A stretch of 50,400 nucleotides of DNA from an uncultured Opitutia bacterium (GTDB lineage Bacteria; Verrucomicrobiota; Verrucomicrobiia; Opitutales; Opitutaceae), in assembly GCA_903861185.1 (NCBI GenBank), contig CAIOTK010000347.1:1-50400 (forward strand), in the 5' to 3' direction. The notes under the pieces are model-generated. The model was not told the DNA's origin. It worked only from the letters and a program-made list of their open reading frames with translations, and made no database searches. The position numbers were made by a program, and so were the translations under genes. Below are positions 9,101-17,733 of this stretch, one piece after another (the stretch's first letter is position 1; each line of letters opens with the position of its first letter).

Positions 9101-9468
9101 CCCTCAATATCTACGTACAGATCGGCCTGATCACCCTCGTGGGTCTGATCGCGAAGAACGGAATCCTCATCGTCGAATTCGCCAATAGCCTCCAGCACGA
9201 AGGCGTCAGCAAGCTGGAGGCGATTCGCCGAGCCTCCGCCACGCGGCTCCGGCCCGTGCTGATGACGTCCGCCGCTACGGTGTTCGGCCACCTGATGCTG
9301 ATCTTCGTCACCGGCCCCGGCGCAGCCTCGCGTAACAGCATCGGCTGGGTGCTGGTGGTTGGGATGGCGGTCGGCACCGTTTTCACCCTCTTCGTGGTTC
9401 CCGCCTTCTACGCTTTGATCGCCCGCGAGCTCGCCCCTCGGCCGGCCACCTCCGTTCCCTCCGCATGA
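6175..9468 (+). CDS. RND multidrug efflux permease (AcrB/MexF-like) with an extra hydrophobic insertion
   Basis: This is a proton-driven inner-membrane pump. TM1 follows the N-terminal FTDLFVRKPV motif. The TM4 proton-relay aspartates are D404/D405 (GIVVDDAIVVVEN), and the TM10 lysine is K994 (GLIAKNGILIVEFAN). The porter-domain motifs are present in both halves. At 1097 residues it is about 50-60 longer than typical members. The TM4 aspartates sit near the AcrB positions (407/408), but the lysine is 54 beyond AcrB K940. The excess lies at about 535-600, where two hydrophobic stretches precede the ordinary TM7 (about 603-622, followed by SELAPKEDQG). Its stop overlaps the next gene by ATGA. 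Confidence 0.95.
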   Translation: MQERSFTDLFVRKPVVALVVNITLLVLGVVSFYQLNTRQYPRSDSAVVKISTVYFGASAETVRGYITTQLERVVASADGIDYIESESRAGFSLISVYLRLNYDTNAALAQISSKIDQVRSELPPEAESPTISVETSDNQFASMYISFYGDQLAPNQVTDYLNRMVQPALSSVKGVQRADILGGRVFAMRVWLKPDALAAHGISPAEVRQALATNNALAAVGSTKGTMLTMSLVANTDLRSAAEFRELVVARRGDTIVRLSDVAEVVLGAETYDDEVRFAGESATFMGIWVLPTESTVEVVKRVRALLPTIERDLPGGLRMRVGYDATKYIDDSLREILRTLAETLVIVALVIFLFLGSLRSVIIPLVAMPLSLLGALTMMLAFGFTINLLTLLAVVLAVGIVVDDAIVVVENVERHIRAGQTPFDAALLGARELVGPVISMTITLAAVYAPIAFQGGLTGALFREFALTLAGAVAISGFVALTLSPMMSAQLLRGGAHEERGLVGLSNRLFDRLRDSYEGVVGAMLSLRADRRPAWVLAGWSLIAWLPLWPLAVGVVWLLFGADGVKAAAVPAALGLLGASVLGAILVFAFDLALGRRYRTVQFVLAGSLLLTVLLLPFFQFAQSELAPKEDQGVVFSILAPSPTATIEQNSIYAREVQKIYQSVPEYDASFQVTSANFGISGMILKPWSERRRTSVEIGDSLQAPAAAVAGVNVIVNTPDPLPAGGQLPIEFVLRSTASHREMLDVAQQLVIHANTQDPAAGGPPVFYFADKDLKFDLPQAEIEIDREKVAAMGLSLVDVARDLGSMLGGGYVNRFVNDGRSYRVIPQVERGERLNAEQLLNYHIRGPQGQLISLGTIASIRETVQPRTLNRFQQLNSVKITGVGPSIDAALRKLEAKAAEILPAGYTIDYGGQSRQLRTEGKALGKAALLAVLLIFLVLAAQFNSFRDPFIILLGSVPLAIVAAMLPVFLGVSTLNIYVQIGLITLVGLIAKNGILIVEFANSLQHEGVSKLEAIRRASATRLRPVLMTSAATVFGHLMLIFVTGPGAASRNSIGWVLVVGMAVGTVFTLFVVPAFYALIARELAPRPATSVPSA

Positions 9469-10799
9469 CCTCGTTCCGCCTCCCGCTGTTCTGGGCACTG
9501 CGCCGCGCCGTGCCGGCCCTCGTCGCCGCGTCGGTCTGGGCGGCGCCGTCCCTGCCGCCGGGCCCGCTCGACCTAGCAGGCGCGTTGCGTTTCGCGCTCG
9601 ATCACAATCTCGCGATCCAACAGGCGCGGGAGCGGATCCGCCAACAGGACGGCGTGGTGCTTGAGGTCGGGGCGCGTCGCCTGCCCACGGTGGGGGCGTC
9701 GGCGCTCTATCAGCGCAACGACACCGATGTCTCCCAGAGCTTTCCTGCGTCCGAGCAGGCCTGGCAACTGAGTCTCACGGCCACGCAGGTGGTGTATTCC
9801 GCGGGCGCCGTTCCCGCCGCGGTGCAGGCGTCCAAGCTCACCCGCGACGCGGCTACGCTTGAGCTCCAAGCCGTGATCAACACGGCGCTGCTGCAGGTGC
9901 GCGCTGCGTTTCTCGAGGTCCTCCTGTCGCGGGAGCAGATCAAGGTGCAGGAGTCTAACTTGGAGCTCTTGCGCGAGCAGCTGCGCACGGTGTCCGATCG
10001 CTACCAGGCCGGGACGGTGTCGAGTTTCGAGAAGCTCCGGGCGGAGGTGGCCGTCGCCAACGCCCAGGTCCCCCTGATCACCGCACGCAATGGGCTCCGT
10101 CTCGCGGGCGAGAACCTGCGCCTCGCCCTCGGCCTAGTGGCCGCGCCGGGTACCCCTCGGCCGGAGCTTGAGGTCTCGGGCACCCTCACGTTTACGCCGC
10201 AGAGTTTCGACCGGGCCGCCGCTCTCGACGCCGCCCGCGCGCAGCGCCCCGACCTACAACGGCTCGCCAAGCTGGCCAGCGCGCGCGAGGAGGGCATCAC
10301 CACCGCCCGGGCAGGCCTCTATCCCAACGTTGCCGCCTTCGGGGGGTGGAGCCTGCGCAAGGGGCCAACTTCCCAGTTCGGCGATTCCAATCACGGCTGG
10401 CTCCTCGGGGTGCAATCGCAATGGGACATCTTTGACGGCCGCGCCACGCGGGGACGGGAAGCTCAAGCCCGCTCGGCGTTGAACCAGACCCGGCTGCTGC
10501 TCGCCGAGGCGGAGCTTTCGGTCGACGTGGAAGTCAGCCGCGCCCATTCGGGTTGGCAGCAGGCTTCCGAGTTAGCGGACGCCTCGGCGCGCGTGGTCGA
10601 GCAGGCTACCGAGGCAGTCCGCCTCGCCAACGCCCGATACGAGGCGGGTTCCGGCACGCAACTGGACGTGCTGTCTGCTCAGGTTGAGCTGACGACTGCC
10701 CGGACGAACCAGATCCAGGCCTTCTACCAATACAACGTCGCGGTGGCAGCGCTCCGGAAGGCGATCGGGCAGGCGGATGAGCTAATCGCGCGGCCTTGA
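9465..10799 (+). CDS. TolC-family outer membrane efflux channel
   Basis: This is the outer-membrane exit duct of the tripartite pump. The 444 residues start with a signal peptide (Arg-rich n-region, hydrophobic core, cleavage near VWAAPS). Two structural repeats of long amphipathic coils follow, e.g. ALDHNLAIQQARERIRQQDG, RYQAGTVSSFEKLRAEVAVA and the matching second-half RYEAGSGTQLDVLSAQVELT, as expected of TolC hairpins. The start codon overlaps the pump stop (ATGA at 9465-9468), so the two are translationally coupled. No lipobox cysteine is visible, unlike the OprM group. Confidence 0.93.
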   Translation: MTSFRLPLFWALRRAVPALVAASVWAAPSLPPGPLDLAGALRFALDHNLAIQQARERIRQQDGVVLEVGARRLPTVGASALYQRNDTDVSQSFPASEQAWQLSLTATQVVYSAGAVPAAVQASKLTRDAATLELQAVINTALLQVRAAFLEVLLSREQIKVQESNLELLREQLRTVSDRYQAGTVSSFEKLRAEVAVANAQVPLITARNGLRLAGENLRLALGLVAAPGTPRPELEVSGTLTFTPQSFDRAAALDAARAQRPDLQRLAKLASAREEGITTARAGLYPNVAAFGGWSLRKGPTSQFGDSNHGWLLGVQSQWDIFDGRATRGREAQARSALNQTRLLLAEAELSVDVEVSRAHSGWQQASELADASARVVEQATEAVRLANARYEAGSGTQLDVLSAQVELTTARTNQIQAFYQYNVAVAALRKAIGQADELIARP

Positions 10800-10884
10800 G
10801 CCGGGCTGGACGCCGCGCCGTCCTTCGGACAGGTTGGGTGGTGGGGAACCTCCGCCCTCTGTTGGTTGTCCCGCCTCCCGCTTG

Positions 10885-13737
10885 ATGAGCAACGCGCGTG
10901 TCTTCCTCCTCCTCTTCGCGGCGCTTGCGCTGGCGGCGGTCGGAGCCGGGCTCACGCCAGCGGTCCAGTCCGGGATCGGGCAACTCCTGCTGCGGCGATC
11001 CGTCGACCCGGCGGTCGAGCTCGAGTCAGCACGGTTCGATTGGGACGGTGCCCTGCGGGTGCGGGACCTTCGGCTGCGATCGCCGGGAGTGCAGCTAACC
11101 GTCGCCGACGCCGAGCTTCACGTGTGGCTGGGCAGCTTGTGGGGCGCCGGGAGGCCCCTGTTTCGAGAGGTCCAGTTGCGCGGTTGTGTGATCGAACCAC
11201 TGGCTGCGACCAGAATTGCGGAAACGTGGCGGGAGCAGTTGCGGGCATCGCTGGCGGCGACGCTCGTTTCCGCCCGGTTAGAAGCGGAGGGGGAAGTGCG
11301 GTTGCCCGGGGAGACCGGGAGGGTCGGATTCCGGGCGACCGGGTCGGGACAGGCCCCCGGCGGGGATCGAGCGTTGCGGGTGGAGTTCACGCTGCTTCCG
11401 GAGGGGACCTTCCTCCCGGTCGTTGAGGGCCGGTTAAGGATGGCACTTCCGGCCGGGGCGGCCGCGCCGCTGCGCGCCGAGTTGGAGGCCCGCGTTCGCG
11501 GGCAGGGCTGGCCGCCAGAGTTGACCGTGGCTGGGGAACTGACGGACGGGCAGACCGCGGGCGGTGGCGCGTGGATGCTCCGAGTCCGTGCGGCGGACCG
11601 GGAGGTCGCGCGGCTCAACGGGCGGTTACCCGAGGTCGGGGAGGAGTGGCGATTCCGGTGGTCGGCGGACTTTCGTGGGGAGGAGGTGGCGGGGCTTATC
11701 CCCGAGTCACGCTGGGCCGGCGAACGGATCGTGGGCGAGGGGGAAGTGCGCTGGTCGCCCGGCCCGGGGGTAGTCGCGGTGCAGGGGAAGGCCGAGGTGG
11801 AGCTGGGTGCCGCGGCGCGGGCTCATCCTGCGATCGCGCCTCTCGGTCTTACCGGCGGGGACGCGGAGTTTGAGTTCCGCGCCGGTACGCGGGTGTGGGC
11901 GTTCGAGAGGCTGGCCGTGCGCCTGCGAGCGGGCGGGGCAGCGCCCGTCCTGCGGCTCATCGCCCGCCAGCCCTGGGCGGTGGACTGGCGTGACTGGGCC
12001 TTTCAAGCGAGGGAGCCGGAAGCGGACCTGCTCGCTTTGGAAGTCTTGGACTTCAACCTGCCGCCGCTGCGCTGGGAGGAGCTCAGCGTGGACGGCGGGC
12101 TGGTACGGGGAAGTCTGATCGGCCGGGTGAGCGCCGGCGGTCTCGCGCTCCGGACAGACGGAAATCTGCAGGTCACCGGACTGTTTGTCGGGGCGGGGGA
12201 TAAGCGATGGGCCGAGGCTCTGGCCCTGACGCTGAAAGGGGGGCTCCGAGTCGCTTCCGAGGGCTGGAGCGCGGAGGTGGATGAGTTGCGGCTTAGTGGG
12301 AAGCAGGGCGAATTTGCCGTCCTCGAAGCCAAGGGGGGCCGCCTCACGGGTCAGCGGGAAACCTGGAAGATGGCGGGAAGGGGGCGCGTAGAACTTGCGC
12401 CAGCGGCCGCCAGTTTCACCGCGGGCCGTGGGTTCGGCCTTTCGGATGGGATCCTTGAGTTGGATGCGGGTGCGACGGGCGGGGCGGTGACCTCGCTCCA
12501 TGCGCACGTGCGGGCCTCCGGCCTGCGGGCGACGACCGAGCTGCCCGATCTGCGGCTCGACGCGCGGATCGACCGGGAATCCTCGGGGCGGTTGAAATTC
12601 CACGTGCCACTTGAGACCGGATCCGGTCCGAGCCTCTCCCGGGTGCTGCTCGCGGGCGCGATGGAACCTGCCGATCGCGGGGGCGGACGTATCGAGCTCG
12701 CAGTCACGGGTCCCCGGCTCGACCTCTCGGCGCTGGGTCGAGTCGGGGCGCTGTTCGCCGGCGAGGATTCCGTTACGGGGAATGCGGTGCCGTGGGCCGG
12801 CTGGTCGGGCAGCCTGATGGCCCGGATTGACGAGCTGGTGGCCGGCGAGGGCGCATTCTGGCGGAATACGCGGGCGCGGTTCCGGTTCGAGGAGTCGCTC
12901 CTGCAGGCAGATGAGCTGGAGTCGGTCCTTGCCGGCGGCGCGAGCCTGCGGGCAAGCGGAACCCTTCGCCACCTACCCAGTGAAGGTGGATCCTACAGTC
13001 TCCAATCGGCGTTGGTGTTGCGCGATTGGAACCCTGGAGAAACGGAGGGCGGGCCCGGCTGGTTTTCCGGCAAACTAGACTTCGCGGGTTCCCTGCGTTC
13101 TCGCGCTCGGGATCTGGCGGCTTTGTGGGCGGCGCTGGAGGGGGAGGTGCATCTGGTCTCGCGCGGCGGCACGCTGCGGGTGTTTCCGGTCAACCTGCCT
13201 CCCGTGCCGGCGGGGTCCGGCCGGGTGGCCGAGATCCTCGCGGCGGCGGGCGGTGCGCTGGAGTCCCTGGGGGTACGCCGCGATCCGCCGTTGTCTCGCG
13301 GCCGGGCGGTGGCGGAGCTTTCGGCCGCCCTCCATCCGCTCGCGTTCGACCAACTCAGCGTGGTCGCCGCACGGGACGCCGCGGGGCACCTCAGCCTGCG
13401 TCACCTCGTGGTGCTCACTCCGGAACTGCGGCTGACGGGCGGTGGCAATCTCCTGCGGCGCCCGGGGAGCGACTTCCTCGAGGGATCCCTTGCGCTCGAG
13501 CTGCAGTTACGAGCGCGGGGGCGGCCGGCTGATTTGCTGCGAGGCTTGGGGGCGCTCGACGAAGTGCCCGACGAATGGGGCTATGCCGCGGCGGGGCTAC
13601 CCCTGCGGGTGCGCGGTACCCTGGCGCGGCCGGACGCCAGCGATCTCAGCGTGCGCCTCGCCGCTTTGGCCCTAGAGCGCAATCCGGTTTCCGAGCGCGC
13701 GGCCGACTGGTTTAACCGGATCCGTCGGGCAAAATGA
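10885..13737 (+). CDS. Large AsmA/YdbH-like envelope protein
   Basis: The 950-residue product has one N-terminal membrane anchor (about 5-27: VFLLLFAALALAAVGAGLTP). A very long periplasmic region of repetitive beta strands rich in Gly, Arg, Leu and Val follows. The C-terminal end (AAAGLPLRVRGTLARPDASD) matches the closing pattern of AsmA-like/YdbH proteins. That family forms beta-taco bridges implicated in moving phospholipids between membranes. Assignment is by architecture and tail motif, not by a recognised catalytic residue. The ATG at 10885 is chosen because the anchor follows at once. It lies 85 nt after the TolC gene and 25 nt before the ATPase gene; whether it belongs with either is unknown. 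Confidence 0.7.
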   Translation: MSNARVFLLLFAALALAAVGAGLTPAVQSGIGQLLLRRSVDPAVELESARFDWDGALRVRDLRLRSPGVQLTVADAELHVWLGSLWGAGRPLFREVQLRGCVIEPLAATRIAETWREQLRASLAATLVSARLEAEGEVRLPGETGRVGFRATGSGQAPGGDRALRVEFTLLPEGTFLPVVEGRLRMALPAGAAAPLRAELEARVRGQGWPPELTVAGELTDGQTAGGGAWMLRVRAADREVARLNGRLPEVGEEWRFRWSADFRGEEVAGLIPESRWAGERIVGEGEVRWSPGPGVVAVQGKAEVELGAAARAHPAIAPLGLTGGDAEFEFRAGTRVWAFERLAVRLRAGGAAPVLRLIARQPWAVDWRDWAFQAREPEADLLALEVLDFNLPPLRWEELSVDGGLVRGSLIGRVSAGGLALRTDGNLQVTGLFVGAGDKRWAEALALTLKGGLRVASEGWSAEVDELRLSGKQGEFAVLEAKGGRLTGQRETWKMAGRGRVELAPAAASFTAGRGFGLSDGILELDAGATGGAVTSLHAHVRASGLRATTELPDLRLDARIDRESSGRLKFHVPLETGSGPSLSRVLLAGAMEPADRGGGRIELAVTGPRLDLSALGRVGALFAGEDSVTGNAVPWAGWSGSLMARIDELVAGEGAFWRNTRARFRFEESLLQADELESVLAGGASLRASGTLRHLPSEGGSYSLQSALVLRDWNPGETEGGPGWFSGKLDFAGSLRSRARDLAALWAALEGEVHLVSRGGTLRVFPVNLPPVPAGSGRVAEILAAAGGALESLGVRRDPPLSRGRAVAELSAALHPLAFDQLSVVAARDAAGHLSLRHLVVLTPELRLTGGGNLLRRPGSDFLEGSLALELQLRARGRPADLLRGLGALDEVPDEWGYAAAGLPLRVRGTLARPDASDLSVRLAALALERNPVSERAADWFNRIRRAK

Positions 13738-13762: not shown

Positions 13763-14767
13763 TTGCCCAAACTGCCGCGTGTGATCGCGTCCATCGCCTT
13801 TCATCGCTTCAAGGCCCTGCGGCAGACGCGCATCGAGTTACAGCCCTTCAACCTGATCATCGGTCCCAACGGCAGCGGAAAGACGAGTCTCATCGAGTCG
13901 ATTCTGACCCTACGGCGTTTGGCGGTGTTGCCGTTAGCTGGGGCCGAATCGGTGCAGCGGGGCGAGGGGCCGGAGATCCGCTTCGGGTTTGCGGCCCCGC
14001 ACGCGGGGATCAGCGCGATCCTAGGCTGCGCGGGGGAGGGCCAATGCGATTTTCTGCGGGTGGAGCCGGCGGGGACGCCTGCGTGGCCCGCGCTCCGCGC
14101 CGGGCTGGCGACCGTCCGGGGCTATGCGCTCGAGCACGAAGCGATGACGCGCCCTTGTCCCCCGGGCGACGGAGCGGAACTGACGGCGGACGGAGCCAAC
14201 CTTGCGGCCGTGCTAGTGCAGCTTAGAGAGCGCACGCCGGCAGTGTATGCGGCCCTCCAAGCGGAACTCCTCCGCCTGTTGCCGGAGTTTTCTGCGCTGG
14301 AAGCCGGTCCGGGCCCGAGCGGTGGGCTCACCTTCGGCCTGCGATTGGCGGAGGGTGGCGAATTGCTCGGCGCGGAGGAGTTGTCCCAAGGTACGCTTTA
14401 TGTCGTCGCGCTGCTCGCGCTTGCCTTTGACCCGACCCCGCCGCGCATCCTGTGTCTAGAGGAGGTGGACCGCGGCGTGCATCCCCGGATGTTCCGCGAG
14501 GTGCGCGATGTGCTCTATCGGCTCAGCTATCCGCCGGCGGATGCGGGCCGCGCGGGGGTGCAGGTGATCGCGACGACCCACTCCCCATATTTCATCGATC
14601 TGTTCCGGGATCATCCGGAGGAGGTGATCATCTCGCAGAAGACCGGCCGCGCGGCCATTTTAGAACGACTGGCGGACCGCCCCGACCTCCCCGAGTTGCT
14701 GCGAGAGGGATCGCTCGGCGAGATGTGGTACAGCGGAATCCTCGGCGGGGTGCCGGAGGAGCGATGA
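13763..14767 (+). CDS. RecF/OLD-like AAA (ABC-type) ATPase of a two-gene ATPase-TOPRIM pair
   Basis: The 334 residues form one ABC-type ATPase head without a long coiled coil. The N-terminal strand IASIAFHRFKAL precedes Walker A GPNGSGKT (34-41). The signature-like ELSQGT is at 206-211, Walker B ILCLEEVD at 229-236 with D-loop HP (240-241), and the switch histidine is in TTHSPYF (H273). This layout is typical of AAA_21/AAA_15 ATPases paired with nuclease or TOPRIM partners. No ATG lies near the homology start; TTG at 13763 or GTG at 13781 (before IASIAF) must be used. It overlaps the next gene by ATGA. A role in defence or DNA repair is inferred from architecture and pairing. Confidence 0.85.
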   Translation: MPKLPRVIASIAFHRFKALRQTRIELQPFNLIIGPNGSGKTSLIESILTLRRLAVLPLAGAESVQRGEGPEIRFGFAAPHAGISAILGCAGEGQCDFLRVEPAGTPAWPALRAGLATVRGYALEHEAMTRPCPPGDGAELTADGANLAAVLVQLRERTPAVYAALQAELLRLLPEFSALEAGPGPSGGLTFGLRLAEGGELLGAEELSQGTLYVVALLALAFDPTPPRILCLEEVDRGVHPRMFREVRDVLYRLSYPPADAGRAGVQVIATTHSPYFIDLFRDHPEEVIISQKTGRAAILERLADRPDLPELLREGSLGEMWYSGILGGVPEER

Positions 14768-15438
14768 ACGTCGCCCTGTTGAGCGAGTCCCCGGCGGACG
14801 AGGCGGCGTTACGGGAACTGGTCACGGGGGTGCTGCGGGTGCGCCCTCGCTTCATCGCTCCCGGATTCCGGGCGCGCGGCTGGCCCAACGTCGCCCAACT
14901 GCTGCCGGCGGTGATCCGCCACCTTCATTTTAACACCGATGCGGACGCGCTCGTCGTGACGGTGGACGCGGACGATTCGGTGGTGCATGGGGCGGCGCAT
15001 GAGCGCCCGGGTTACTTCCATCCGCATTGCCGAATGTGCCAGCTGAGGGCAGTACACCGGCAGACGACTAAGAAGCTGCCGCCGGCGCGGGGCCGAGAAC
15101 GCCTGCTGCGGGCCGTGGGAGTGGCGGTGCCGGCAATCGAGGCGTGGTACCTGTGCGGCCGGGATCCGGCGGTCACCGAGGCGGCGTGGGTCGAGGGCAA
15201 CGCACGGGGTGCTCGCCCCTACAGCCGGGCCGAGCTAAAGCTGCGGGTCTACGCGACGGAGCGGCCGAGTCTCGCGCACGAGATCGACTGTGCCCTGCGG
15301 GAAGTGGAACGGCACCGGGCGGATTCCCGCCGGCTGGAACACGAGTTTCCCGGGTTCGCGGCGCTGGCGGCTGATCTCCGCGCGGCGCGCGACCGCCCGC
15401 CGAACTTAGTGTCCGCGGCCGGTTCGAGCCCGGCGTGA
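14764..15438 (+). CDS. TOPRIM/DUF4276-like partner of the upstream ATPase
   Basis: The 224-residue protein is coupled to the ATPase gene by an ATGA overlap. It shows a TOPRIM-like layout: an acidic residue after strand 1 (LLSESPADE, E8), a D-x-D-D cluster ending a hydrophobic strand (ALVVTVDADDS, D68/D70/D71), and VPAIEAWYL (E126), which resembles the conserved EAW-L block of DUF4276/DUF4435-type proteins. A compact HPHCRMC motif (86-92) between these could bind metal. TOPRIM partners of ABC-type ATPases include OLD nucleases and PARIS AriB; this protein is shorter than AriB. The family call is by motif only, and nuclease activity is unproven. Confidence 0.6.
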   Translation: MNVALLSESPADEAALRELVTGVLRVRPRFIAPGFRARGWPNVAQLLPAVIRHLHFNTDADALVVTVDADDSVVHGAAHERPGYFHPHCRMCQLRAVHRQTTKKLPPARGRERLLRAVGVAVPAIEAWYLCGRDPAVTEAAWVEGNARGARPYSRAELKLRVYATERPSLAHEIDCALREVERHRADSRRLEHEFPGFAALAADLRAARDRPPNLVSAAGSSPA

Positions 15439-15507: not shown

Positions 15508-17733
15508 ATGTTCCGCCGTCGATCCTTCCTGCCGCTGTACCTTGAATTGTTCGCGCACCTCGTGGCGCGGCTGCTTTACCGGGTCCGGACCTCCGGGTTG
15601 GAAAACTTCCCCGCCCGAGGAGGGGTCCTGCTGATCGCCAACCACCTCTCCTATGTCGACGTGGTGGTGCTGCAGCTCGCCTGCCCGCGGCCGATCCGGT
15701 TCGTCGCGCACCACTGGCTGCGGCGCAACGGGTTCCTGAACTGGTGCTTCGAGCGCTCCGGCAGCATCGGCATCTCCGCCGCCCAGCCGCGCTCGGGAAT
15801 GCAGGGTGCCGTCGAGGCGCTCCGGCGGGGTGAGGTGGTCTGCATTTGTCCGGAGGGGCACATCTCCCGGACTGGGCAGTTAATGCGGTTGCATCGTGGT
15901 TTCGAGGTCATTGCCGCGCGGGCGGGCGTATCTGTGGTCGCGGCAGCGGTCGACGGCCTCTGGGGATCGATCTTCTCCTTCGCCGGCAATAAGTGCCTGT
16001 GGAAATCGCCCCGCCTCCTACCGACGCCCGTCCACGTGGCATTCGGTCGTCCGCAGCCTGCGGCTCAGGCTGGGGTGGAGTGGGCGCGGCGCGAACTTCT
16101 CGATCTGGGCGAACGTGCGTTTCAAGAGCGGCCGACGCTCCGGCGGCACTTGGGCCGCGAGTCGGTCCGTGCCCTCACGAAGCAGCCGGGACGGATTCTG
16201 GTCATTGACCGCACAGCCGACCGCCGAGCCCTCTCCAGCGCCCAGATCTTCGCCGCTGCCGCCCTCCTCTCGCGGCGCCTCCGGGCGCGGGTCCCCGGCC
16301 GGCGGGTCGGCATCGTCCTGCCGCCCGGTGCCGGCGGCTTCATCGCCAACCTCGCGGTGGTAATGGCCGGCAAGGTACCGGTGAACCTCAACTTCACCGC
16401 GGGGCGCGACGCGGTCCTCGCGAGCCTGCGTATCGCCGGGATCGAGACGGTGCTGTCCGCGAAGGCGATGCAGGAGAAAGTGCCCGCGTTCCCGTGGCCG
16501 GCGGGAACGCTCGACCTCCGGGCCGAGATCGAGGCTGCAGGCGGGCGTCGCGCGATGCTGCCGTGGCTGCTCGCCGCGTGGCTGTTACCAAACCAGGTCT
16601 GCGCCAACCTGCTCGGCCTGCCGCGGATCGGCGACCGCGAGGAGGCCGGCCTGCTCTTCACCAGCGGCAGTTCGGGCGAGCCCAAGGGCGTTGTGCTCAC
16701 GCACCGCAACCTCCTCGCTAACTGCGACCAGATCTCTTCGCTCTCGATTCTCCCCGCGAGGTCCTCGGTGCTCGGCTGCCTCCCGATCTTCCACAGCTTC
16801 GGCTTCACCGTCACCCTCTGGTACCCGATCCTCCGCGGCAGCCGCGTGATCACGGTGCCAAGCCCGCTCGACACCCGGCGGATCATCGACGCGATCGCGG
16901 CCGAGCAGGTGCAGGTGATGGTCGGGGCGCCCACCTTTATCCGCCCGATTCTGAAGAAAGCGCAGCCGGCAGAATTGCGCTCCCTCGACCTTGTCGTCAC
17001 CGGGGCCGAGCGGCTGCCGGATGACCTCCAGGCCGATTTCCTGCGGCAGTACCACATCGATATCCAGCAGGGTTACGGTCTCACCGAGACCTCCCCGGCC
17101 ACGAACATAACCCAGCCGGACCCCCCGATCGTTTTTTCCACCAACGAGCCGCAGGCGGGGAAACGCGCGGGCTCGGTGGGCCGCCTCCTGCCCGGTCTTA
17201 CCGCTCGCATCGTTGATCCCGAGACGATGGAGGAGCGCCCCGAGACTTCGACGGGCTTGATCCTTTTGCGTGGCGCCAACGTTTTCGAGGGCTACCTCGA
17301 CGATCCCGGCAAGACCCGGCAGGCGTTTTGCCGCGGTTGGTTCGTCACCGGTGACCTCGGACGTTTTGACGAGGATGGCTTTCTTTACATCGAGGGTCGG
17401 CTGTCGCGCTTCTCTAAGATTGCCGGCGAAATGGTGCCCCACGGTACGGTGGAGATGCGCATCGTGGAAGCCTTCGGCTGGGATCAGTCAGAGCAACCGG
17501 TGGTGTACGTCACCGGCATCCCGGACCAGGCGAAGGGCGAGGCGCTCGTCTTGCTGACCACCCAAGCGGTGACGCCGGAGCAGCTGCGCGCGCGGCTGGC
17601 CGAGCGGGGGCTACCGAATCTCTGGGTGCCCAAGATCGTTCACCGCGTGGAGCGGATCCCGATGCTCGGGACCGGCAAGACCGACCTCAAGCAGTGCCGC
17701 GAGCTCGCGCTGCACGCCGTCAAGGTGGGCTAG
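15508..17733 (+). CDS. aas: Bifunctional acyltransferase / acyl-ACP synthetase (Aas-like)
   Basis: The 741 residues fuse a PlsC-type acyltransferase to an AMP-forming acyl-ligase. The acyltransferase shows NHLSYVD (H46, D51: the HX4D catalytic pair) and CPEGHISRTG (114-123). The ligase shows the AMP/ATP loop LFTSGSSGEPKGV (383-395), the YGLTETSPA motif, and GWFVTGDLGRFDEDGFLYIEGR. In E. coli, Aas reacylates lysophosphatidylethanolamine using fatty acids activated on ACP at the inner membrane. No LplT transporter gene is adjacent, unlike in E. coli. The last 14 nt overlap the convergent DTW gene. The start ATG at 15508 gives the expected short amphipathic lead to the acyltransferase. Confidence 0.9.
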   Translation: MFRRRSFLPLYLELFAHLVARLLYRVRTSGLENFPARGGVLLIANHLSYVDVVVLQLACPRPIRFVAHHWLRRNGFLNWCFERSGSIGISAAQPRSGMQGAVEALRRGEVVCICPEGHISRTGQLMRLHRGFEVIAARAGVSVVAAAVDGLWGSIFSFAGNKCLWKSPRLLPTPVHVAFGRPQPAAQAGVEWARRELLDLGERAFQERPTLRRHLGRESVRALTKQPGRILVIDRTADRRALSSAQIFAAAALLSRRLRARVPGRRVGIVLPPGAGGFIANLAVVMAGKVPVNLNFTAGRDAVLASLRIAGIETVLSAKAMQEKVPAFPWPAGTLDLRAEIEAAGGRRAMLPWLLAAWLLPNQVCANLLGLPRIGDREEAGLLFTSGSSGEPKGVVLTHRNLLANCDQISSLSILPARSSVLGCLPIFHSFGFTVTLWYPILRGSRVITVPSPLDTRRIIDAIAAEQVQVMVGAPTFIRPILKKAQPAELRSLDLVVTGAERLPDDLQADFLRQYHIDIQQGYGLTETSPATNITQPDPPIVFSTNEPQAGKRAGSVGRLLPGLTARIVDPETMEERPETSTGLILLRGANVFEGYLDDPGKTRQAFCRGWFVTGDLGRFDEDGFLYIEGRLSRFSKIAGEMVPHGTVEMRIVEAFGWDQSEQPVVYVTGIPDQAKGEALVLLTTQAVTPEQLRARLAERGLPNLWVPKIVHRVERIPMLGTGKTDLKQCRELALHAVKVG

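Follow-up and report, generated by a model that had tools for sequence, protein, structure and literature searches.

A coupled ABC ATPase and likely TOPRIM-type partner resident in the Opitutaceae, with possible ancestry in a defence cassette

The window analysed here, a stretch of 50,400 nucleotides from an uncultured Opitutia bacterium of the family Opitutaceae, carries on its forward strand a gene for a RecF/OLD/PtuA-type ABC ATPase (13763..14767) followed by a gene for a putative nuclease that is likely of TOPRIM type and resembles HEC-01B and DUF4276 proteins (14764..15438, 224 aa; hereafter the partner), and the two open reading frames are joined by an ATGA overlap. Two coupled genes with a set of named motifs had been described in an earlier note made from the sequence alone, and we recovered both reading frames and every one of the motifs. 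The note had also remarked on the lack of an ATG start in the ATPase, which holds in the window, where the frame opens at TTG 13763 to give 334 aa. Many family ATPases start at a GTG equivalent to window codon 7 (13781), which would give 328 aa, and one related locus (L003) has ATG where the window has TTG. Across 119 family ATPase reading frames the starts were GTG in 87, TTG in 20 and ATG in 12, these being position-based choices picked by nearness to the window start. Using our own Nei-Gojobori script to compare the window with four close relatives (L002, L003, L004 and L006), we obtained dN/dS values of 0.066-0.093 for the ATPase and 0.053-0.114 for the partner, indicating that these are real genes under purifying selection, and the pair is not a chance arrangement of open reading frames.

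All of the immediate neighbours lie on the same strand. Upstream lies a gene for an outer-membrane efflux protein at 9465-10799, followed by a 967-aa gene (10834-13737) which has no Pfam match at 1e-4 and is AsmA-like by reading only, and downstream, outside the system, is an acyltransferase/AMP-ligase gene (15508..17733; AMP-binding 4.2e-64, Acyltransferase 5e-23). In the same four comparisons dN/dS was 0.050-0.067 for the acyltransferase gene. The 967-aa gene evolves faster than its neighbours, at 0.218-0.277.

The ATPase contains GPNGSGKTS at residues 34-42, LSQGT at 207-211, CLEEVDRG from residue 231 and TTHSP at 271-275, with Glu in place of the expected Walker B Asp in 95/96 family sequences and the His of TTHSP kept in 89/95. 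It matched AAA_21 in Pfam (E 3.9e-26), the PADLOC models for HEC-01A (2.1e-38), AriA (1.2e-25) and Old (4.4e-13), and the NCBIfam MAD3 model at E 1.2e-28 but with 100.5 bits, far under the 420-bit cut-off. Relatives by sequence in the PDB include an OLD-family protein (4.7e-9), retron ATPases/PtuA and Rad50, and an AF2 model built on a 57-row alignment (pLDDT 91.8, pTM 0.91) retrieved PtuA complexes and the heads of SMC and Rad50 with Foldseek, the best match being to a PtuA complex (E 3.2e-13). By its Walker A, signature and Walker B motifs, His loop and fold the protein is therefore an OLD/PtuA/Rad50-type ABC ATPase (RecF/OLD/AAA_21 type).

No Pfam or NCBIfam model was matched by the window partner, and when seven Pfam families were compared with 61 members of the partner family each was matched by at most 1/61, with 0/61 for DUF4276 (PF14103) and no match among the same 61 for RloB (PF13707). 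PF14103 does match in 23/141 genomes of the class, none of them from Opitutaceae, and the PDB held no sequence relative of the partner at E <= 10. Among the PADLOC models, the HEC-01B model PDLC04202 gave E 0.0073 against the window partner, as judged by E-value, and was matched by 35/61 members at E <= 10 (best 1.6e-5), while mad4 was matched by 7/61.

Profiles were then compared using hhalign, with relative sets drawn from class and phylum genomes by choosing rows by eye and with E-values that refer to a single comparison. A combined set of nine HEC-01B-type and five divergent DUF4276-like proteins aligned to the partner with a probability of 92.3, E 5.5e-7 and a score of 50, against a maximum of 18.5 over 100 column shuffles. 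Taken alone the HEC-01B proteins scored 31.3 (shuffle maximum 23.9) and the divergent DUF4276 proteins 43.9 (shuffle maximum 21.7), and enlarging the set with canonical and plasmid proteins gave a probability of 88.0 and E 3.1e-6. The canonical DUF4276 proteins (16.4; 17/100 shuffles equally good) and RloB (20.4; 1/100 shuffles equally good) were not convincing on their own, and with no Pfam match and profile scores that do not stand clear of the shuffles we do not assign the partner to either family. As a negative control, the ATPase profile aligned to the partner profile with E 0.98. Profile comparison thus points to a remote relationship of the partner with HEC-01B and divergent DUF4276-like proteins. 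The earlier note had proposed a DUF4276-like partner to be searched with profiles; the Pfam family itself went unmatched, and the similarity found is the remote one to HEC-01B/DUF4276-like proteins.

In this alignment E8, D68xD70 and IEAW of the partner face corresponding residues of the HEC-01B/DUF4276-like relatives. Conservation within the family is strict, with E8, D12, E13, D68, D70, H75, H79, H86, C89, C92, E126 and W128 invariant in 96/96 distinct partner proteins and D71 kept in 95/96. An AF2 model of the partner (61 rows; pLDDT 91.0, pTM 0.87) begins with strand 2-6, helix 10-24, strand 29-31, helix 43-57 and strand 62-68 and continues with a short helix 77-80, helix 90-103 and strand 115-121, so that E8 comes after strand 1, with D68/D70 where strand 3 ends. 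TOPRIM domains have a Glu after strand 1 and a DxD after strand 3, and given the modelled order of strands and helices E8 and D68/D70 are placed as the fold requires. Despite this fitting residue order Foldseek found nothing for the partner model in the PDB at E <= 0.001, where a 305-residue chain of an AriA-AriB complex, which we take to be AriB, ranked 49th with E 0.28. Viral models (BFVD) likewise gave no match at E <= 0.001, the best being an RloB-like protein (E 3.4e-3, probability 0.99, TM 0.40). The TOPRIM assignment is for this reason likely but not proven: the E8 and D68/D70 residues pointed out in the earlier note are conserved and stand in the order of a TOPRIM site, and a significant match to a solved structure did not emerge.

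The weak matches of the partner, scattered over Rossmann-like and other folds, would also suit a protein that is not a nuclease and serves the ATPase as a Rossmann-like subunit for regulation or nucleic-acid binding. We regard this as improbable, given acidic residues that are invariant in all of the distinct proteins and stand in TOPRIM order, and given the HEC-01B/DUF4276-like profile match.

A further feature of the partner is a His/Cys cluster at residues 75-92 (14986..15039, forward strand), formed by H75, H79, H86, C89 and C92, which is a possible zinc site as judged from its residues. The cluster was not seen in a set of 38 relatives (9 HEC-01B, 11 DUF4276-like, 6 plasmid partners and 12 RloB) scanned for the single motif [CH]xxC, an isolated match occurring in 5/38.

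The partner is present in 163/252 Opitutaceae genomes and 37/49 genera, including 26/27 genomes of the window's own genus, and in 108/165 of those genomes with at least 90% completeness and at most 5% contamination; it had no match in 89/252 genomes and in 57/165 of the more complete ones. A single match was found in 161/163 genomes and two in G287 and G374. The ATPase was found at E <= 0.001 in 174/252 genomes, 12 of which were set aside as weak (E 8e-4 to 4e-26), and a tally made by hand from the two match listings gives 161/252 genomes with both genes, two with the partner only (G293 and G310) and one with the ATPase only (G309). At order level 15/177 genomes matched the partner, 14 from Opitutaceae and one through a 32%-identity match with internal stops, and at phylum level the 22/288 genomes matching the 61-row partner profile were all Opitutaceae. 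No relatives of the partner were found in viral contigs, plasmids or phages. The pair also occurs at one locus (L070) that groups with Opitutaceae-type rows although its bin bears the title Akkermansia muciniphila, and this bin is probably mislabelled.

Searching genome contigs with the window partner gave 108 relatives; locus counts use the best 80, a sample weighted towards near relatives. Of the 72 loci with room for it, 70 have the ATPase upstream of the partner. The acyltransferase/AMP-ligase gene lies downstream in 58/64 loci with at least 3.5 kb, at distances of 20 to 5,867 bases and in three cases on the opposite strand, and the loci in which it was not found are L011, L017, L026, L032, L066 and L081. 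For the 967-aa gene, a homologue is upstream in 26/59 loci, 14 of which have it no more than 220 bases from the ATPase. At E <= 0.001 no PADLOC model was matched by five neighbours in the window or by ten neighbours taken from L017, L038, L040, L081 and L233. Distance matrices over 62 common rows correlate between ATPase and partner (r 0.56), ATPase and acyltransferase (0.70) and partner and acyltransferase (0.62), each value exceeding 1,000 permutations, and because the genes are linked these correlations are no independent test of co-inheritance. Compared by eye, trees built from the pair and from the acyltransferase gene have many clades in common, with many forks weak.

The earlier note had named a patchy distribution tied to defence islands as support for its reading. 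This was not what we found, with a partner seen in one family only (but for the 32%-identity match with internal stops), the same downstream gene at most loci, no PADLOC-positive gene among 15 neighbours and no viral, phage or plasmid copy. Horizontal spread beside defence or mobile genes was not seen, and presence within the Opitutaceae is uneven. The note's alternative of a core lineage system agrees better with the residence of the pair and falls short in that the pair is not universal, being found in 161 of the 252 genomes and leaving clean empty sites elsewhere.

These sites were seen among 12 pair-less genomes, a non-random sample picked from the absentees in which the acyltransferase gene was located. 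Five of the 12 (L218, L219, L220, L225 and L229) have a clean empty site, in which a gene of the 967-aa type is followed by the acyltransferase reading frame after a gap of roughly 50-185 bases at most. In L226 the site spans about 600 bases with no reading frame passing the filter, L221 is a short contig with another large reading frame, and L224 and L228 have different upstream genes. Chondroitinase B-like genes occupy the site in L222 (2297-5869) and L223 (4310-7870) and a phytase-like gene in L227 (6832-8295), so that the gap before the acyltransferase gene tolerates insertions. We considered a defence hotspot at this position and rejected it, since the genes identified in absentee sites are of these chondroitinase B-like and phytase-like kinds. 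On a 79-row acyltransferase tree the presence and absence of the pair requires 8 changes, 7 of them forced by well-supported branches, in which losses and same-site transfers cannot be fully told apart. The partner-less family genomes together with the clean empty sites indicate that the pair is dispensable. A link to RecBCD was also considered and dropped: RecC (PF04257) occurs in 34/252 Opitutaceae genomes, 22 without the pair and 12 with it, and as those 22 belong to only five genera and RecC is also missing from 67/89 partner-less genomes nothing was inferred from it.

Relatives of the ATPase do occur on plasmids, where tblastn identified 36 records with full-length similarity and 22-25% identity among the 15 matches listed. 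In 4/6 of the regions opened an annotated DUF4276 protein lies directly downstream of the plasmid ATPase, and two of the DUF4276-linked cassettes, both from Aeromonas, sit between DNA methyltransferase and helicase genes; in the regions L237 and L241 the neighbours of the ATPase look unrelated. A profile of six plasmid ATPases aligned to the Opitutaceae ATPase with a probability of 100 and E 7.1e-44. The six plasmid downstream proteins, two of which look unrelated, scored 16.9 against the partner profile with shuffles reaching 22.9. The link to plasmid ATPase and DUF4276 cassettes is thus firm for the ATPase and remote for the partner, and the cassettes differ from our locus in being plasmid-borne with canonical DUF4276 partners that have no significant profile match to ours.

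A number of known systems resemble the pair in part. The HECs are Hma-embedded candidate defence systems, several of them antiviral and with HEC-06 among those named, as described in PMC12988326. Our ATPase and the best-matching partner member resemble HEC-01A and HEC-01B, whereas the window partner is very divergent, carries the His/Cys cluster, has no PADLOC match among its five neighbours and follows a vertical pattern. In PARIS, according to PMC12409363, a hexamer of AriA sequesters AriB, a tRNase, until triggered. PARIS shares with our pair the split of ABC ATPase and TOPRIM nuclease as well as the AriA match. The nine PADLOC families matched by any of the 61 partner members include no model named AriB, for which reason we do not place the pair in PARIS; nor was a mobile context seen. 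The OLD family, whose classes are described in PMC10568477, likewise combines ABC ATPase with TOPRIM according to that paper and to PMC12796447, and TOPRIM-linked OLD ATPases are described in PMC12839542. The OLD nucleases Gabija GajA, the retron Eco8 effector and Cran1 share this composition with our pair, whose ATPase matches the Old model, but are fused proteins, and with ATPase and partner as separate reading frames in the window and other loci membership of OLD classes 1-3 was rejected. MADS is similar through the MAD3 model and the mad4 matches and differs in the shortfall of the ATPase below the MAD3 cut-off, and RloB is similar as the best viral structure match and differs in a profile match no better than the best of 100 shuffles.

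The PADLOC matches to HEC-01A, AriA and weakly HEC-01B and the plasmid relatives of the ATPase could suggest a classical mobile anti-phage system such as PARIS or HEC-01 that sits in the chromosome by chance. This we consider quite unlikely, because no AriB-named model matched, the searches of plasmids, phages and viral contigs gave no partner, none of the 11/240 genomes matching PDLC04202 is from Opitutaceae, and the downstream neighbour is conserved with tree clades broadly shared.

Our preferred reading, to which we give a probability of about 0.6, is an ATPase-gated nuclease of defence-cassette ancestry that is now resident and mostly vertically inherited in one family. It builds on the observed ATPase identity, conservation, coupling, distribution and empty sites, and the coupling of an ABC ATPase to a TOPRIM/DUF4276-like partner first suggested in the earlier note is supported by the models, the structure match and hhalign. 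Homology and conservation make an ATPase-gated TOPRIM-type nuclease the likely molecular function. In such a split ATPase-nuclease module the ABC ATPase would probably dimerise or oligomerise on ATP, sense a trigger and hold or release the small partner, whose two-metal site of TOPRIM type (E8/E13, D68, D70) would cut nucleic acid. The His/Cys cluster between DxD and IEAW, as a possible zinc site, may help the partner to grip its substrate or the ATPase. The pair would descend from an ATPase and DUF4276/HEC-01B-type cassette, found elsewhere on plasmids and sometimes between methyltransferase and helicase genes, that in the Opitutaceae has settled as a resident locus of the chromosome, nearly always in single copy, passed on mostly by vertical descent and lost repeatedly.

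As to its role, a resident nuclease triggered by stress or by invaders, at roughly even odds, is slightly preferred to genome maintenance. The latter, a lineage nuclease acting like Cran1 on replication or repair intermediates and not on invaders, is a serious if less probable option: the site is conserved, dN/dS of the pair is close to that of the neighbouring acyltransferase gene, none of the 15 neighbours matched PADLOC, and the archaeal OLD protein Cran1 is a documented non-defence and apparently essential case (PMC12796447). Against it is the dispensability of the pair, whose partner gene was not found in about a third of the genomes, the more complete ones included, and which leaves clean empty sites. 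A more specific and only tentative extension of our preferred reading is that the Opitutaceae domesticated a mobile defence cassette of the ATPase-TOPRIM kind, that a newly acquired zinc-binding element altered its substrate, and that it now acts as a chromosomal guard or maintenance nuclease in residence; if true, bacteria would have a parallel to archaeal Cran1.

We make no claim of first description, as relatives of the pair may already be described by Krishnan et al. 2020, cited on ABC-ATPase conflict systems in PMC12839542. In the open-access literature searched no mention was found of DUF4276, of DUF4276 with an ATPase or of Opitutaceae with Toprim, nor anything related to MAD3/MAD4, and the retrieved sections of PMC10853773 and PMC12839542 do not mention DUF4276. 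The setting of the pair is unusual in being resident, clade-restricted, mostly vertical and dispensable. Pairs of ATPase and TOPRIM protein generally come to light by way of defence islands, an approach that overlooks settled, vertically inherited examples, and the Opitutaceae pair could show whether such modules turn to housekeeping or stay immune, its natural presence and absence and intact empty sites allowing a direct comparison of relatives with and without it. Two loci, L038 (4208-4837) and L040 (5054-5674), have a partner with no adjoining ATPase, which may act alone or be decaying.
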